A stretch of 64,000 bases of DNA from Pseudomonadota bacterium. Its GTDB lineage: Bacteria; Bdellovibrionota; UBA1018; CAIMNF01. This document shows positions 45,809 to 56,286 of the stretch, one piece after another. The position numbers were made by a program, and so were the translations under genes. The notes under the pieces were generated by a model. The model saw only the letters and a list, made by a program, of their open reading frames with translations, was not told where the DNA came from and searched no databases. The stretch lies in NCBI GenBank assembly GCA_027491115.1, contig JAIXWV010000041.1:71274-135273 (forward strand), written 5' to 3'. The stretch's first letter is position 1, and the number at the start of each line of letters is the position of its first letter.

Positions 45809-48517
45809 ATGGTTGCTTGGATTCTTCTTTCCCTGTTCCTCCCCTCCACCGAAGCCGCTGATGATTTGGGAACCCTGATCAAGCGGATCAATTGGTCGGA
45901 ACTGAACCTGCCGTTCGTGGCCAAGGTCCCCTCGGGAAAAAAATATTACCGGCTGACCTTTGAAGATGATTTCAAGGGCAAGCCGGATCAGTCCACCCGA
46001 AGCAACTACTGCTACGACGTTGCCAAGCCTCAGTGTTCCACCTGGTGGCAATCTGGTGAGACGACGAAGGACTGTCTCGACACCAGTCACACGCCCCCCA
46101 TCCGGGCCAATCTGAAATCAGCGCTTTACTCTTTGAACCCAGGTTCGAATTATGAGGGCCTTTCGCTAACCTCCATCCAGCAACTCTACGGTCAAACTCT
46201 GCAAGATAACTGGAAGCACCTCAACAAGTGCAACTGGGTCAGTTATTCGGGTGTGAACTGGATGGCCACGGATTACGGGAATCCGCCCCAGTATTCGTCA
46301 AAAATGGACGCATCTCAGGTAACGGTCGATCCCCAAGGTAAAGGCTACCTCATCCTTTCTGCTCGCAAAGGAAAGGTTGTAGAGGATTGTGCCTTCGGTG
46401 GCACCCATCACCTCTTGCCGAGTCGAGTGAGGACGGGGAGTGCGGAATCAGCCTGCCTGATCAAACCAGTGCCAGGGCTGGCCGGGCCCCTGGGAATCTA
46501 CTGGGTTGATAGTGACAAAAAATGGCCTGGAATCTACTACGCAAAAATCAACGGACAGTGCAGTTACGGTGGGCAAACGACTGCTGAAAGTCCGAACTGT
46601 CAGGTTCTCACCTTCAACCCAGGCGAACTGAGCCCCATGATCCGCTATGGGCTGGTTGCAGTAAACGGATCCGCTCAGTTGTTCTACTCAAACCACCAGA
46701 AGTTCGCGTGCCAGGACCACATTGAATACCCGACCAGTGGCGTAGCATTCAATCAGCTGAGCTGCCCAGTTTTAAATGGTGGAATTTCCTCAAAACACTT
46801 TTTCAATTCATCCGATCCGACCGACATGGCGGGCAAAAACGGTTTCTCTCAGCAGAACGGAGTTTTCGAGGTGAAGTTGAGGATCCCGAAGGGACCAGGC
46901 GCTTTTCCTGCCGCTTGGCTCATCCCGACGCGTGGAGGGTGGCCCTATTCCGGTGGAGAAATCGACATCATGGAGGCCCGGGACGATGCGAATGAAGTCC
47001 ACCAAACCTATCACCACGGCAAATGCATTGATTTTGTGAATCAAACCGAAATTTTACAAGATCCTGAAAACCCATTGGCCCGTGTCGAAAGTGGGAACTG
47101 TAGCAAGGCCCAGAATGCTTCCTCGGTCCAGTATTCGAGGGGGATTACCACCAGGCAAGTGATCGAAAACGAGTTCAACTCCCGAGATCATGTGTTTACC
47201 GCAGAATGGGATCAGACCGGAATCCGCTACTACGTCAACAACCGCCTGATGGATTCGATTCAAACAGGTTCCACCCCTGAAAAATACACCCATCTCGGAG
47301 GGTATCTCAATAGCCTGTCCACATCCCCCACGAATCTACCCGATGCCATTCCATCAAATCTTCGACAATTTACGGCAATCAACATGCCCCGGGACCCCTT
47401 CTACTGGATCCTGAACCACAGCACTTATGTGACCCAAACGGATCTGGGTAACTGGCAGAGCCAACACTTTCTGATCGACTACGTGAAAACCTACTCCTTA
47501 TGCCAGACACAAAAGGACTTCTGTCCGAATGGGGGCATTTTCCAAGAAGGCGTGGGTTGTGTTGTCACCAACCGCGATGGCCTTCAGACCATTCAGGCAT
47601 CTGCATGCGTGGAAAGCTTCAATTCCCGATTGTGCCCGAACGGGGGAAAACAGGCGGGACCGAATTGCTGGGTCCATGGATTTTCCAAACCGAAAATGAT
47701 CCCAGGAGTGAATTACTGGGTGGATCATCATCCCGCCTACGCCGGGATTTATTACGCAAAGGTGAATGGTGAATGCCCTTTTGGCGGCTCAAAGGGCGTG
47801 AATTGCATGATTGACAGTATCTCGCCAGGCATAGGCCCGAATGAAAACAGCAAGGTCCTCCCGGGCATTCAGTACTGGGTGGATACGAATCCTTCCTGGC
47901 CGGGCGTCTTTTACAGAAAAATCAACAACGCATGCCCGCTCGGCGGAAGCGGTCCTGCGAACAGTCCCAATTGCCAACTCCGTAGCTATCCTTCGGGGGC
48001 GCTGAGAACCACCGTCTCCTATTGGGTGGATACCGATCCACGTTGGCCAGGAGTGTATTACCAAAAAACGAAACAAGGATGCCCTTACGGAGGCACCTCG
48101 AGCGGGACCAGTCCGAACTGTCAGTTGACTCCCATGAGTGTCCCCTCGTTGTATCTGAATCCGAATGTTCAATATTGGGTGGATACCGATCTCAGATGGC
48201 CTGGACTGTATTATGCGAAGATCAACGGTTCTTGTCCATATGGAGGCAGCGTCGGTGTGAATTGCCAACTGAAGTCCTTTCCACTGACGGAAGGACCCTA
48301 TGTGATGCCGAATGTGAATTACTGGGTGGATACGAATCCTTCCTGGCCGGGAATTTACTACGCGAAAATCAATGGGGCCTGTCCTTATGGTGGAACTGCC
48401 GGTGTGAATTGCCAACTCCTTGCTTTCCCTGCTGGAGTGGTGGAGCCAGGGGTGAACTACTGGGTGGATAAGGATCCGAGATGGCCCGGAGTCTATTACC
48501 TCCCGGATTTCAGATGA
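45809..48517 (+). CDS. Secreted GH16-like glycoside hydrolase with repeated Cys/Trp modules
   Basis: A 902-residue secreted protein with a signal peptide (about 1-17). The catalytic core has GGEIDIMEAR, the GH16 ExDxxE signature with E384, D386 and E389, so cleavage of a beta-glucan, agar or carrageenan-type polymer is expected. A module built on YWVD..P.WPG.YYAKING.CPYGG....NCQ occurs seven times: once inserted before the catalytic motif (about 228-265) and six times in tandem at the C-terminus (about 634-902), where the last copy is cut short. Two CPNGG motifs precede the tandem array. The modules are probably disulfide-bonded carbohydrate or cell-surface binding units, but I cannot name the family. 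Confidence 0.8.
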   Translation: MVAWILLSLFLPSTEAADDLGTLIKRINWSELNLPFVAKVPSGKKYYRLTFEDDFKGKPDQSTRSNYCYDVAKPQCSTWWQSGETTKDCLDTSHTPPIRANLKSALYSLNPGSNYEGLSLTSIQQLYGQTLQDNWKHLNKCNWVSYSGVNWMATDYGNPPQYSSKMDASQVTVDPQGKGYLILSARKGKVVEDCAFGGTHHLLPSRVRTGSAESACLIKPVPGLAGPLGIYWVDSDKKWPGIYYAKINGQCSYGGQTTAESPNCQVLTFNPGELSPMIRYGLVAVNGSAQLFYSNHQKFACQDHIEYPTSGVAFNQLSCPVLNGGISSKHFFNSSDPTDMAGKNGFSQQNGVFEVKLRIPKGPGAFPAAWLIPTRGGWPYSGGEIDIMEARDDANEVHQTYHHGKCIDFVNQTEILQDPENPLARVESGNCSKAQNASSVQYSRGITTRQVIENEFNSRDHVFTAEWDQTGIRYYVNNRLMDSIQTGSTPEKYTHLGGYLNSLSTSPTNLPDAIPSNLRQFTAINMPRDPFYWILNHSTYVTQTDLGNWQSQHFLIDYVKTYSLCQTQKDFCPNGGIFQEGVGCVVTNRDGLQTIQASACVESFNSRLCPNGGKQAGPNCWVHGFSKPKMIPGVNYWVDHHPAYAGIYYAKVNGECPFGGSKGVNCMIDSISPGIGPNENSKVLPGIQYWVDTNPSWPGVFYRKINNACPLGGSGPANSPNCQLRSYPSGALRTTVSYWVDTDPRWPGVYYQKTKQGCPYGGTSSGTSPNCQLTPMSVPSLYLNPNVQYWVDTDLRWPGLYYAKINGSCPYGGSVGVNCQLKSFPLTEGPYVMPNVNYWVDTNPSWPGIYYAKINGACPYGGTAGVNCQLLAFPAGVVEPGVNYWVDKDPRWPGVYYLPDFR

Positions 48518-50995: not shown

Positions 50996-52630
50996 ATGCT
51001 TCCCCGCGCCCTCCACTCCCGCCTTTTACTGACTTCGACGCGCTCGAAATTACGTCTTTTGCAGCTCCTCATCGGGCCGAGCAGCTGGATCCGGAAAATT
51101 CTGGGATTGCCGACCAGCGGATTGGCTGTGACTCGTCAGGGATTGAAATGGTCTCTCGATCTCAGCGAAGCAATCGAGGCGAACCTCTACCTCACTGGGC
51201 GCTACGAACCGGAACTGTCGGACCTCATGGAACGGGAGATCACACCGGGTTCGATCGTCTTAGACATCGGCGCCAATCTCGGCGCCCACACGCTACCCCT
51301 TGCTCAAAGGGTGGGTCCCGAAGGGCGGATCATTGCGGTCGAAGCAACTGATTTTGCCATGAAGAAACTGCAGGTGAATCTGTCGCTGAACCCGTCACTC
51401 GAAAGCCGGGTCACTCCGGTTCACGCATTCCTTTGTGATCCTGAGCATTCCGACCTGCCCTCTTACGTTTCATCCAGTTGGTCCCTGAAAGGAGGGCTCA
51501 CCTCTCCCTACCGGAACGCTCTCGATCTGGGCTACGCCAAGCCCACGCTCGGTGCACAAACTCTGACGCTCGACCAACTTGTACAGGAACTCGAACTGGA
51601 ACGGGTCGATGCGATCAAAATCGATGTTGATGGACATGAGGCCTCGATCCTTCGGGGTGCGCGAGCAACACTCCAAAAACATTCACCTCTGATCTTTCTC
51701 GAATGTTCTCCCATCCACTACGAGGCCATGAAGACCACTTTCCGCGAACAACTGGATCTACTCTTGGCCGAAGGATACCGCTTCGAAGATGTGTTCGGGA
51801 ATCCACTTTCATCGGATCCGGAACAGATCCGTGCCTCGATTCCACGCGGTACACTCATCAATATTTTGGCCAAAAAGCAGGTGCATCAGAACCATCTCGA
51901 ACTGAAGAACCTGAACGAGGAAAGACTCGAGCTCTTGAAACATCGACTCTCGGCTTACATGGCCGGCCAGAGAGACTCCTGGAGTTACCTGAAGGTCATC
52001 CGCCCCGGCTATGCTTCAAAAGAACTCTACGCGATCTACATGATCGAGACCTATCACTACACTTTCCACAATTCTCGCAATCAAGCCAGGGTGGCCGCAC
52101 GAAAAGAATCACTCGATATCCAGTACATGAAGTTCTGCCTCCATCATGCTGAAGAGGAAGCCGGGCACGAACTCATGGCGGTTCACGACGTGAAGAACCT
52201 CGGTTTCACGGTTGAACCCTCTCATCTCCCCTCGCCCTTACCTGCCACACAGAAACTCATCGATTACCTCTACGAAGTTTCGGATACGGGCAATCCCCTC
52301 GCCCGTCTGGGCTACAGCTTTTGGGCGGAACGGGTTTATGATTACATCTCGCCCTTGCTCACCCTCATGAGAGTCGGAGTCGGCATCCCGAAGAACGCAA
52401 TGAGTTTCTTCACAGCGCATTCGACCATTGACGCCAAACATGCCGTTGAAATCGATCGGGCCATGATTCGTTTCGCCAAAACCGACGCCGATTGGAAGGC
52501 GATCGAGTCCTGCATGCTCGAATCCCTTGACCGGACCATCGCCATGACCCACGAAGTGCTCGCCGAGTACGACCGGTTCCTTGCGGGAGAATTCACCCGC
52601 TACGACTCGATCTTGAAAGGCCGGAAATGA
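50996..52630 (+). CDS. FkbM-type methyltransferase fused to heme-oxygenase-like diiron domain
   Basis: A 544-residue two-domain protein. Residues about 60-290 are an FkbM-family SAM methyltransferase with motif I VLDIGANLGAHT and a later IKIDVDGHE. Residues about 300-544 are all-helical and carry the ligand pattern of heme-oxygenase-like diiron oxidases: E351 with H354 or H358, E388-x2-H391 and D479-x2-H482. Such domains do N-oxygenation, C-C cleavage or decarboxylative oxidation in natural-product pathways. First gene of a three-gene overlapping operon. I do not know a characterised protein with this fusion; the substrate is probably lipid-linked judging from its neighbours. Confidence 0.8.
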   Translation: MLPRALHSRLLLTSTRSKLRLLQLLIGPSSWIRKILGLPTSGLAVTRQGLKWSLDLSEAIEANLYLTGRYEPELSDLMEREITPGSIVLDIGANLGAHTLPLAQRVGPEGRIIAVEATDFAMKKLQVNLSLNPSLESRVTPVHAFLCDPEHSDLPSYVSSSWSLKGGLTSPYRNALDLGYAKPTLGAQTLTLDQLVQELELERVDAIKIDVDGHEASILRGARATLQKHSPLIFLECSPIHYEAMKTTFREQLDLLLAEGYRFEDVFGNPLSSDPEQIRASIPRGTLINILAKKQVHQNHLELKNLNEERLELLKHRLSAYMAGQRDSWSYLKVIRPGYASKELYAIYMIETYHYTFHNSRNQARVAARKESLDIQYMKFCLHHAEEEAGHELMAVHDVKNLGFTVEPSHLPSPLPATQKLIDYLYEVSDTGNPLARLGYSFWAERVYDYISPLLTLMRVGVGIPKNAMSFFTAHSTIDAKHAVEIDRAMIRFAKTDADWKAIESCMLESLDRTIAMTHEVLAEYDRFLAGEFTRYDSILKGRK

Positions 52631-53655
52631 AACAGTTCAGACGCGAGCAAGAACTCCTGACCCGTCATCTCGAAGGCCGCTCCGTGGCGGGTTTCAGCCC
52701 GGCCCAAATGAAAGAGATCCAACACGAGGTGAAAACGATTCGAGAAGCATCCGATGCATCGCCTCTGTTGCACCAGTTCATGGAAGCCCTGCCCTTTTTC
52801 ATCCTGCTCACCGCTTGGGCCGGGTTGATCTTCCTAGTCCCGAGCATGATCTCTAACACCAACCTTTTATTCATCATTCTCTTCATCGGGCACGGCATCA
52901 TCGGATACCAATGGGTCATCTACGGCATCCATGAGGGCGCCGGCCACGGACTCTTCCGACGAGGCGACTCCCGGTTGCTCCGACTGATGCGTTTTCTCGC
53001 TTTTCACAGCTCCCGCCTCATGATGGCCGATCCGGTTCACTACCGCCAGCAACACAAGAGTCATCATCGATTCACCGGTACCGAGCAAGACGGCTCGCAA
53101 ACGAACTTTGTACTGGGCCGGAGGATCCTGGTGAGCTTGCTCCCGGGAGCCGGGATACTCTTTCCCAATGATTACCGCGTCCACCATGGCGACGGATTCA
53201 GCGGCTCACTGGCCCTGTCCGGGGTGGTCGGACTCACCCGAGTCGGAATCGAAATTCTGGAACTCCGGTCAAGATTCAGCATCGGGGAGTGCCTCGCCCT
53301 TTTGTTGATCTTTTCGCCTTGGGTGGGCCTTGCGCTGGATCGGATTCGAGAGAGCCTCGAGCATCACCTGATGCCCCAATCTCCGGTTCATGGCACACGT
53401 GAACTCGGACTTTCGCCTTTGGCACTGCTGATCGCTGGCGGCCCCTGGGGTCAGCCCTGTCATTTGTCCCATCACTTGGCCCCTGAATTGAACTGGTACC
53501 AACAGATCCGCCTCCACTTTATTTTACGGGACAGAATTCTGAATGAAGAACAGCTCCGTTTCTTCGGATTCAGAACCCCTTTTCTCCGACTTGTCCGTGA
53601 AGAAACCGAAAAGCATCTGGCTTTGGAGTACGGGCAGAACAGGAGTCGGATATGA
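52627..53655 (+). CDS. Membrane fatty-acid desaturase/hydroxylase-like protein
   Basis: A 342-residue integral membrane di-iron enzyme. The three His clusters are intact: HEGAGH (H102, H106), HYRQQHKSHH (H138, H143, H146, H147) and HLSHH (H279, H282, H283), with an extra HH in ESLEHHL. Hydrophobic segments lie at about 55-90 and 200-235. It could desaturate or hydroxylate an acyl chain or a lipid head group. Overlaps the genes on both sides by 4 bp (ATGA), so is translationally coupled in the operon. Confidence 0.85.
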   Translation: MKQFRREQELLTRHLEGRSVAGFSPAQMKEIQHEVKTIREASDASPLLHQFMEALPFFILLTAWAGLIFLVPSMISNTNLLFIILFIGHGIIGYQWVIYGIHEGAGHGLFRRGDSRLLRLMRFLAFHSSRLMMADPVHYRQQHKSHHRFTGTEQDGSQTNFVLGRRILVSLLPGAGILFPNDYRVHHGDGFSGSLALSGVVGLTRVGIEILELRSRFSIGECLALLLIFSPWVGLALDRIRESLEHHLMPQSPVHGTRELGLSPLALLIAGGPWGQPCHLSHHLAPELNWYQQIRLHFILRDRILNEEQLRFFGFRTPFLRLVREETEKHLALEYGQNRSRI

Positions 53656-54326
53656 GACTTTTGCTTACCCTGATCGAGCTCTTGGCCTTTCGTCCTTTCC
53701 GGGCAATCCTTCAGCTGTATATTCATTTCGGTCCGGCCCGCTTCCAGAAAATCAGACTCGGCTCAGAGCTGTCCGAAGCCACCCTCAATGAGATCTCCCG
53801 CTTCAGGAAGACCCAGTACGAAGGAAGTCAGCCCTACCTGATTCCCGATTCGCCAGAAGCTGTGACGGAGGAGAATCACCTCGACCTCCGTTCCTACCAT
53901 GGCATTGCTCGGGATCGCTCAGGGAACATCATCGCCGTGGCTCGCTTCACGCCCTATCCATTTGAGACCACTCGCTTGCTCGGGGCCGAACTCACAACCC
54001 CGTTCCGGGAGCACCTGGAAATCTCGAGAGTGGTCACCTCCAAACGCAGGTCCGGGATCGGTCGGAGGCTGTTGATTCAAGGCGGGTGCTTTGCCATTTC
54101 CACCAAGCGATACCGGGGTTTCGTGGCGGTGTGCAAATCGGGGAACCTCGCGATTTTCGAGAAATTCGGACTCGGCACCCACGGTCGGCACCTCATTCCG
54201 GGGCGTCCGGCCTCTCCTTATCACTTCATCTCGGCCGACTTCTTCAGAATCACCGTCACCACTTTCGCCTACACAGGACGAAAATTCGCTCACGCGTGTT
54301 CCGTGATTCTTAGCCCGTTTCTTTGA
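53652..54326 (+). CDS. GNAT/LuxI-like N-acyltransferase
   Basis: A 224-residue protein with a hydrophobic N-terminus and a GNAT-type core. The arrangement of a GIARDRSGNIIAVARF strand pair followed by LEISRVV and GIGRRLL resembles LuxI-type autoinducer synthases and FeeM-type N-acyl amino acid synthases, which take acyl chains from acyl-ACP. An acyl amide product is therefore possible. Overlaps the desaturase gene by 4 bp and the convergent ferritin-like gene by 17 bp. Family assignment is from pattern only. Confidence 0.6.
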   Translation: MRLLLTLIELLAFRPFRAILQLYIHFGPARFQKIRLGSELSEATLNEISRFRKTQYEGSQPYLIPDSPEAVTEENHLDLRSYHGIARDRSGNIIAVARFTPYPFETTRLLGAELTTPFREHLEISRVVTSKRRSGIGRRLLIQGGCFAISTKRYRGFVAVCKSGNLAIFEKFGLGTHGRHLIPGRPASPYHFISADFFRITVTTFAYTGRKFAHACSVILSPFL

Positions 54327-55224
54327 CTTCGAACACGCCGTCACGTTCCAGTCGGTGAACCAGCTGCTCACGGTCGGCCTTCAGAAGCATCTCTTTCAGC
54401 GACTCAAGCCGTTTCTCCAGTACCTGTCTATACCCCACGGCCTCGAGGTGATGCCTGCGTGCCTCCGCCGAAATCGGTCCCCCCACTTCCTCGAGGGCCC
54501 TCAGTACCCAATTGGCCGACTGAAGTGCCCCCACGAACTCACGGGTGAACTCGAAGCACTCGTCGCGATCTCCTTTTTTCAGTACGCCTTCTTTGGCAAG
54601 AACAAGACCTGCACCATGGTGCCGGGCCTCATCACGCAATATTTTCTGGAACGCCTGAACCAGTCCCGGATGACGGCAGTCTTGCATCAGGGAACGGTAA
54701 TGCCCCATTCCGAACCCCTCCAGCAGAACCTGGATCAGGAGCACACAAGCCTCCTTACTCCCATCCCGGATCACTCTCGCCAAGGGATCGAGCATCGGGT
54801 GCCAATCCACGGAGGGGTCCGGGGTGAACCGCATGAAATTCCGGAACAAACGCAGGTGAATCGCTTCCTCGGCCGAAAACAGACAATAAAGGGACTTCTC
54901 CTCCATCCGGTCGGCAAGGAGGATCATCTTCGCTCCGTAATTGTGGCCCGACTTTTCGATGAAATAAGACAAACTCAAGTTCCATCTCGAAATCTTCTGA
55001 AGCACCTCCGTCTGCTGATGGGGCTCGAGTCTTGTATACACCGATGAATGTTCCAGACCGTACCGTTCCGGCCCCCAAAGGCTGTCGGGCAAGTCCGACA
55101 CCGGCTTCGTCACCCCGTACTGTTCAAGCCCCCGGTCGAGAATGCTCACGATCGGGTGTTCCGCATCAAGACTTGGCGCGAAGAAAATCGAATCGTCCGT
55201 GAAGTAACTCTTCAAATCGTTCAT
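54310..55224 (-). CDS. Ferritin-like diiron protein
   Basis: A 304-residue helical protein. The residues E90, E120-x2-H123, E169 and E199-x2-H202 match the diiron ligand set of the ferritin-like superfamily (ribonucleotide reductase R2, AurF-type oxygenases). It may be an oxygenase acting on the product of the opposing genes. ATG 55224 follows GGGAGG; an in-frame codon further upstream is possible. Overlaps the upstream beta-helix acyltransferase gene by 59 bp. Converges on the N-acyltransferase gene. Confidence 0.72.
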   Translation of the reverse strand: MNDLKSYFTDDSIFFAPSLDAEHPIVSILDRGLEQYGVTKPVSDLPDSLWGPERYGLEHSSVYTRLEPHQQTEVLQKISRWNLSLSYFIEKSGHNYGAKMILLADRMEEKSLYCLFSAEEAIHLRLFRNFMRFTPDPSVDWHPMLDPLARVIRDGSKEACVLLIQVLLEGFGMGHYRSLMQDCRHPGLVQAFQKILRDEARHHGAGLVLAKEGVLKKGDRDECFEFTREFVGALQSANWVLRALEEVGGPISAEARRHHLEAVGYRQVLEKRLESLKEMLLKADREQLVHRLERDGVFEVKETG

Positions 55225-55849
55225 GATGCCTCCCTTCCGGAATCTCCTGATTCGGATATACCACCGCCCCGGCCTCAATGAAGGCCCCGTCTCCGATCAC
55301 AGTTCCGGGGGCCAGTGTGGCTGAAAAAGAAACCACCACGTCAGATCCGACCCGGACCTCTTTGACGAACAACTGATAGCGATCTTGTTTCTTTTTGATC
55401 GCATGAGCCGTGATGTAGGATTGGTTTCCGATCAAGCACCGATCGCCGATGCGCACGAAAGGGCGATCCACAATCTTGCATCCTGCAGTCCAGTTCACCT
55501 TCTTTCCGATCCGGGCCCCCCAGAGCCTGAGCCACATCGAATACACCCCGGGAAAAGTTTTCAGTACCCGCTCGAAAACCTCGAAGGTCTCGTAGATCTC
55601 TTGCAACCGGTGGCTCACGAGCCAAAGACTCCCCGTTTCAACCTTCACACCGATCCGGCTCACCAGCGGAACCGGTCCGTAAACCGAGCTCATCAACCGC
55701 CAAATCAGAGGCGACTGGAGATACAAGGCGAATATGGCGAAAGGAAGAAACAGGCCTTCCCAGTCATCTGTCCAAAAAAAGAGCAGGCCGAGCTCCAAAT
55801 AGAGCACCGGGGTGTAAAACCTGAATACCAGATCCAGAAATTTCGGCAT
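55166..55849 (-). CDS. Left-handed beta-helix acyltransferase-like membrane protein
   Basis: A 227-residue protein with one or two N-terminal membrane segments (about 10-50) and a C-terminal hexapeptide-repeat domain (IGDRCLIGNQSYITAH, VRVGSDVVVSFSATLAPG, IGDGAFIEAGAVV). This fold is shared by many acetyl- and acyltransferases. Its 3' part overlaps the ferritin-like gene, so the two are coupled. It starts 20 bp after the 138-residue secreted-protein gene on the same strand. Confidence 0.68.
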   Translation of the reverse strand: MPKFLDLVFRFYTPVLYLELGLLFFWTDDWEGLFLPFAIFALYLQSPLIWRLMSSVYGPVPLVSRIGVKVETGSLWLVSHRLQEIYETFEVFERVLKTFPGVYSMWLRLWGARIGKKVNWTAGCKIVDRPFVRIGDRCLIGNQSYITAHAIKKKQDRYQLFVKEVRVGSDVVVSFSATLAPGTVIGDGAFIEAGAVVYPNQEIPEGRHHERFEELLHGRFDFLRAKS

Positions 55850-55869
55850 GCCAGACCGACCGCCTCGAA

Positions 55870-56286
55870 TCAACGGTGCCGGAGGTTCGAACAGGTGGTG
55901 ACGGTTTTGACATCATCCTTCCACTGGTCATGGAGCAGCACGAACGAATCCGGCCGGTGACTCTCGGGGTTCATTTTGAGAACGAAAGCCGCTCCGCCAC
56001 TTGGAGTGCCTTCCACCGCAGTCAATTGCTCATGCGTGAACTGAACCGTACCGTCTTCAGAATTCACGACAGGCAGATGCTGGAGGACCAGCTCCTTCGA
56101 TCCGAACTTGATGAACACGCGCTCGTTGAGCGGATTCTTCACCCCCTGCTCGAAGCGGATGTCGATCACTTCGAATGCACAAGGGTTGCCGTTCAAACCC
56201 AGACCCGAATAAACCCCTTTCTCGAGATGGGCTTGCGCCGGCAGAGTGAAGAACAAGGCAAACAAAACTGAGACGTTGGATTTCAT
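55870..56286 (-). CDS. Small secreted protein, unknown
   Basis: A 138-residue protein with a signal peptide (cleavage near PAQA, residue 19). The mature part is beta-rich with two Cys, one near each end. AGGAGA precedes the ATG. No family recognised. Lies between the serine protease gene and the beta-helix acyltransferase gene on the same strand. Confidence 0.65.
   Translation of the reverse strand: MKSNVSVLFALFFTLPAQAHLEKGVYSGLGLNGNPCAFEVIDIRFEQGVKNPLNERVFIKFGSKELVLQHLPVVNSEDGTVQFTHEQLTAVEGTPSGGAAFVLKMNPESHRPDSFVLLHDQWKDDVKTVTTCSNLRHR

Follow-up and report, generated by a model that had tools for sequence, protein, structure and literature searches.

A rare fusion of an FkbM-family methyltransferase to a predicted heme-oxygenase-like diiron oxidase in the Bdellovibrionota, and its separately encoded relatives

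An uninterrupted open reading frame of 544 codons at 50996-52630 (plus strand) is a genuine fusion of an FkbM-family, SAM-dependent methyltransferase (MT) with a domain of the heme-oxygenase-like diiron oxidase/oxygenase (HDO) type. Both protein families were already known, and their fusion is rare. The window, by which we mean the whole stretch of DNA analyzed, is 64,000 nucleotides of contig JAIXWV010000041.1 from a member of the Bdellovibrionota (GCA_027491115.1). The fusion gene is divided as follows.

50996-51871, plus strand: FkbM-family SAM-dependent MT domain, residues ~1 to 292 (PF05050, TIGR01444)
51872-51910, plus strand: inter-domain linker of ~13 residues (293 to 305), bounded by the end of standalone MT homologues and by residue 306, where the 3DDE-like fold begins
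51911-52627, plus strand: HDO domain of the 3DDE subfamily, residues ~305 to 544 (PF14518, phmmer, fold search)

The N-terminal half matched PF05050 (E 3e-18, residues 90 to 263) and TIGR01444 (E 4e-24), both above the curated cut-offs, and residues D90, G92, A93, N94, G96, H98, E116, D210-V-D-G, and E215 were invariant across 11 aligned rows. The domain thus has in common with FkbM-family O-methyltransferases both the family profiles and intact SAM motifs. The C-terminal half matched Haem_oxygenas_2 (PF14518, "iron-containing redox enzyme") with an E value of 6e-16 over residues 348 to 508. A preliminary description of this DNA had read the gene as a single 544-residue chain carrying an intact FkbM SAM domain followed by a helical domain, and that reading is borne out by the open frame, by the matches to both domains, by the invariance of motif I and DVDG-x-E, and by a second genome described below.

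The nearest solved structure by sequence to the HDO half is 3DDE (3dde_A; phmmer E 6e-57), the Shewanella denitrificans protein Sden_3740. In an AlphaFold2 model, this half was predicted with pLDDT mostly between 90 and 98 over residues 300 to 539, and it superposed on 3DDE with a Z score of 32.2 (231 residues aligned, 42% of them identical), which places the two in one subfamily. Lower scores were obtained with CADD (Z 20.9), HrmI (Z 20.0), and UndA (Z 17.7), and a Foldseek search with the model matched BesC. The heme-oxygenase-like helical fold that marks the HDO superfamily is therefore present, as judged against 3DDE, CADD, and UndA, and the model presents the carboxylate- and histidine-bearing helices expected of it. 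Of the three proteins that the preliminary description had singled out for comparison, UndA and CADD have this fold in common with the fusion, and SznF was recovered as a weak profile match. Other profile matches were to MboA (E 2e-9), BesC (E 1e-3), and p-aminobenzoate (pABA) synthase (E 2e-3). UndA, CADD/pABA synthase, SznF, HrmI, and BesC share the fold at low identity, but have other partners; SznF is an HDO joined to a cupin rather than to a methyltransferase. 3DDE itself differs from the fusion in being a standalone protein without a methyltransferase domain. Its annotation goes no further than a domain of unknown function, and our searches turned up no assigned function for its subfamily and no data on substrate, product, or metal. 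Acinetobacter DtpC, a stress factor resembling HDOs, was weighed and then set aside, as no link to the 3DDE subfamily was shown. The MT half was modeled with pLDDT mostly below 50, because a single other alignment row covered it, and the model gives no confident geometry between the domains.

To place the metal site, a profile of 24 relatives was compared with MboA (PDB 9YPI, in which the deposited chain is offset by 25 residues). The crystal structure of MboA shows the ligands Glu86, His89, Glu143, His172, Asp176, and His181 (PMC13185094), and these align one-to-one with E388, H391, E445, H475, D479, and H482 of the fusion, each of which is invariant in all 24 family members. The corresponding codons are listed here.

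52157-52168, plus strand: E388-x2-H391, matching MboA E86 and H89 and predicted to bind metal (profile alignment; 24/24)
52328-52330, plus strand: E445, matching MboA E143 and likewise predicted to bind metal (profile alignment; 24/24)
52418-52441, plus strand: H475-x3-D479-x2-H482, predicted ligands equivalent to MboA H172, D176, and H181 (profile alignment; 24/24)

The ligand set proposed earlier was thus right in part: E388, H391, D479, and H482 stand, E351, H354, and H358 fall outside the conserved set, and E445 and H475 had been missed. E351 is Glu in 21 of the 24 members and Gln in 3, and it sits on the preceding helix; H358 is replaced by Glu in 2 of 24. In MboA, the E351 column holds a Glu that does not appear in the ligand list, and the H354 and H358 columns hold Ile and Met. 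On the strength of this alignment and of the Gln and Glu substitutions among relatives, E351, H354, and H358 were rejected as conserved core ligands. With E445 and H475 in their stead, the predicted ligands make up a canonical 3H/3C site on core helices 1 to 3, to which E351 could still add a fourth, SznF-like carboxylate (3H/4C). MboA, the HDO acetylenase of mangotoxin biosynthesis, has the same six-ligand 3H/3C set in identical order, and is the nearest functionally characterized HDO by profile, though remote in sequence. It differs in the spacing before its last ligand (D-x4-H, against D-x2-H in the fusion), and it acts unfused on a peptide substrate with a flavin/Fe-S reductase, MboB (PMC13185094).

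A second whole fusion occurs in a genome of the same genus (locus L002, genome G010). It is also 544 residues long and is 79% identical without a single indel, and its linker is of identical length. Compared between the two genomes, the halves gave Ka values of 0.16 and 0.11 with Ks saturated, and a Ka/Ks of ~0.06 in each. The low level of nonsynonymous change indicates that both halves are maintained under purifying selection. An origin of the fusion in faulty sequencing or assembly deserves practically no credence: the window does come from a draft assembly of 45 contigs, but an accident of assembly is refuted by a same-length, 79% identical copy with saturated synonymous sites in another genome. 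The coupling of a methyltransferase to a diiron oxidase in one protein had been called unusual, and the counts agree. Of the 368 genomes of the phylum, two had the fusion. A search of 564 others (195 from the phylum of a Myxococcota relative and 369 from the class of a gammaproteobacterial relative) gave no fused match. A scan of 84,980 species genomes, using exact peptide patterns of limited sensitivity, yielded no further fusion, and a plasmid search gave no full-length match. Our searches turned up no known fusion of this kind with an assigned function. We came across no account of either the fusion or the cluster in the literature searched, and an HDO review mentions neither fusion nor methyltransferase.

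The fusion gene is followed in the window by four genes, two on each strand.

52627-53655, plus strand: DES, a membrane protein resembling fatty-acid desaturases, with three conserved His boxes (weak PF00487 match at E 1e-5, short of the cut-off)
53652-54326, plus strand: GNAT, a FeeM/AHL-synthase-like N-acyltransferase (Pfam FeeM, profile, model)
54310-55278, minus strand: FER, a ferritin-like diiron protein (the true start may be further in)
55166-55873, minus strand: HEX, an acyltransferase-like protein of the left-handed beta-helix (hexapeptide-repeat) type whose N-terminus is hydrophobic (PF00132, E 5e-11)

ATGA overlaps join the fusion gene to DES and GNAT downstream in the same operon, and FER and HEX lie on the opposite strand and converge with these three. 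In DES, the histidines H102, H107, H143, H146/147, H279, and H282/283 were invariant across 7 rows. Seven of the 13 GNAT family members matched Pfam FeeM, while the family profile matched the AHL synthase TofI (3p2f) with an E value of 1e-4. R98 and R126 of GNAT are invariant and E123 is present in 12 of 13 members, following the Arg and Glu-x2-Arg pattern of AHL synthases. The GNAT model (pLDDT 91) gave FeeM, TofI, and LasI as its top three VIA-align matches, with Z scores of 15.3 to 15.0 that were tied with those of other GNATs. At very low identity, GNAT resembles FeeM and AHL synthases in fold, in a weak sequence match, and in the conserved R98, E123, and R126. FER shows the diiron four-helix pattern E92, E122-x2-H125, E171, E201-x2-H204 (numbered from window position 55230), invariant in 12 rows, and members of its family weakly matched Ferritin_2, AurF, R2, and Ald_deCOase. 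HEX shows similarity to the terminal domain of Pls/PosA. Elsewhere in the window, 45809-48517 encodes a 902-amino-acid protein in which a weak GH16 match precedes several YWVDTDPxWPGVYYAKINGxCPYGG-type repeats.

In other genomes, the two halves of the fusion are encoded by separate genes within the same cluster. Locus L054 has six separate consecutive genes in the order MT-GNAT-HDO-HEX-FER-DES, L056 has the same six functions in the order GNAT-MT-DES-HEX-FER-HDO, and L003 (identical to L058) has MT-GNAT-HDO-DES with FER ~5 kb away. The occurrence of MT and HDO as separate genes of one cluster in three other genomes supports their acting in one pathway. Across 27 HDO loci (the window and 26 others, several of them truncated at contig ends, and with L023 and L024 excluded as remote), a GNAT gene was near the HDO gene in 21, HEX in 12, FER in 12, DES in 8, and MT in 5, of which 2 are the fusions. 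Among six further loci profiled separately, two had a GNAT near the HDO. MT and HDO co-occurred in 7 of the 368 phylum genomes, with a Fisher odds ratio of 44 that ignores relatedness. These families travel together across loci, so the fused halves belong to one cluster. The MT is not exclusive to the cluster pathway, however, since its relatives also occur beside a glycosyltransferase-like gene (L021, L022, L066, L068, and L091). Standalone FkbM relatives are thus found in this cluster or next to glycosyltransferase-like genes, whereas the window MT is joined to an HDO. An MT tree did not resolve orthology between the fused MT and the cluster MTs.

The GNAT-HDO loci include Pseudomonas, Corallococcus, and plasmids of Deefgea and P. 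syringae, and the pairing recurs in the Pseudomonadota and Myxococcota. In other phyla the pair occurs with a DUF3419 protein (annotated as such in Deefgea and assigned by sequence similarity elsewhere), and some of these loci also have an S-adenosylmethionine decarboxylase. The pair adjoins this decarboxylase at 7230-10128 of L072, a Deefgea piscis plasmid that also has the DUF3419 gene, and at 6715-8546 of L098; the arrangement suggests a substrate derived from SAM or decarboxylated SAM in those lineages. On a conjugative plasmid of P. syringae pv. actinidiae (L073, 2410-11054), a putative cluster combines a diverged GNAT-HDO pair with genes for a LuxR regulator, a phenylacetate-CoA-ligase-like protein, a flavodoxin, a transporter, and anthranilate synthase. 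In L004 (245-1714), GNAT-like and HDO matches lie in one frame, but a GNAT-HDO fusion there is indistinguishable from a hidden stop because the frame contains stretches of N. Diverged HDOs in L069 and L070 stand beside a TylF-like methyltransferase-type protein, in L070 together with an Asp-hydroxylase-like protein, and judging by these sequences the HDO family may recruit differing methyltransferases. Two HDO/GNAT/DES clusters have additional genes, a sulfotransferase-like and a P450-like gene in L061 and a UGT-like glycosyltransferase and a fatty-acid-hydroxylase-like gene in L063, which suggests that the products have diversified into a family.

On balance, we favor a reading in which the fusion is a bifunctional tailoring enzyme that combines O2-dependent oxidation with methylation in the biosynthesis of an N-acyl-amino-acid-type metabolite, and in which it was formed from two genes of the cluster. 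The neighboring FeeM/AHL-synthase-like GNAT would probably make or N-acylate an intermediate. The C-terminal 3H/3C dimetal, probably diiron, HDO domain would activate O2 and oxidize this amino-acid-derived or acyl-amino-acid intermediate, and the N-terminal FkbM domain would methylate either that intermediate or the product of its oxidation, most likely at an oxygen atom. DES, FER, and HEX would probably alter the intermediate further, giving a modified N-acyl-amino-acid-type metabolite or lipid. The joining would have taken place in one lineage, the two genes remaining unfused within this cluster elsewhere in the phylum. In this scheme we infer the metal occupancy, the O2 chemistry, the substrate class, the order of steps, and the methyl acceptor; an oxidized, methylated product of the N-acyl-amino-acid type would be the most economical reading of the pathway. 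The substrates of characterized HDOs are mainly fatty or amino acids (PMC13108848). It is conceivable that the fused domains channel an intermediate from one to the other.

The fusion may instead provide only co-expression and a fixed stoichiometry, with the halves acting as independent enzymes of one pathway, without channeling and perhaps at non-consecutive steps, and we rate this as nearly an even prospect. Indeed, the pathway works unfused, given that the halves are separate in L003, L054, and L056, and in L003 and L054 GNAT lies between them. The linker is short and, with 20 of 28 residues identical to the L002 fusion, less conserved than either domain. No evidence weighs decisively against this view; yet because other genomes hold the genes together without fusing them, co-expression alone would be a weak motive for fusion.

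The two remaining alternatives concern the chemistry of the HDO domain. In valdiazen- and fragin-type pathways, an HDO and AurF-like proteins act together, and by analogy the HDO and FER could carry out N-oxygenation or N-N bond chemistry, with the FkbM domain methylating an N-hydroxy or diazeniumdiolate oxygen. The presence of HDO and FER together in 12 loci and the weak AurF similarity of FER are consistent with this, and N-oxygenases do exist among HDOs (PMC13108848). We nevertheless consider it unlikely: the E/ExxH/E/ExxH pattern of FER is no worse a fit to R2 or aldehyde-deformylating-oxygenase types than to AurF, a nonribosomal peptide synthetase was not seen in the window cluster, and MboA, the nearest characterized HDO by sequence, is a desaturase/acetylenase. 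A catalytically idle domain, or one with a non-redox function like TenA or PqqC, seems very improbable. Although there is a weak TENA_THI-4 match (E 5e-4) and there are structural matches to TenA and PqqC, PF14518 far outscores TENA_THI-4, none of the six dimetal ligand positions varies among the 24 members, and Ka/Ks is ~0.06.

The HDO superfamily is growing fast: it counts over 10,000 predicted members, and roughly a dozen have been characterized (PMC13108848). The fusion and its split relatives link a functionally orphan, 3DDE-type HDO to a specific MT and to a FeeM/AHL-synthase-type N-acyltransferase, and the six-gene L054 cluster is a small and concrete target for expression that offers a ready test of the substrate class. 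More interesting than the fusion itself is the conserved cluster, with its GNAT-HDO pairing, around an HDO subfamily that is structurally known but functionally orphan. More speculatively, and with more doubt than belief, we suggest that GNAT-HDO could be the core of an undescribed and widespread class of pathways for oxidized N-acyl-amino-acid metabolites, possibly signals, in which the fusion would be a channeling enzyme. If so, this class would span the Bdellovibrionota, Myxococcota, and Pseudomonadota, including some plasmids, and its fullest form would combine an FkbM methyltransferase with diiron-type oxidases of three different kinds, one of which is fused to the methyltransferase in the organism studied here.
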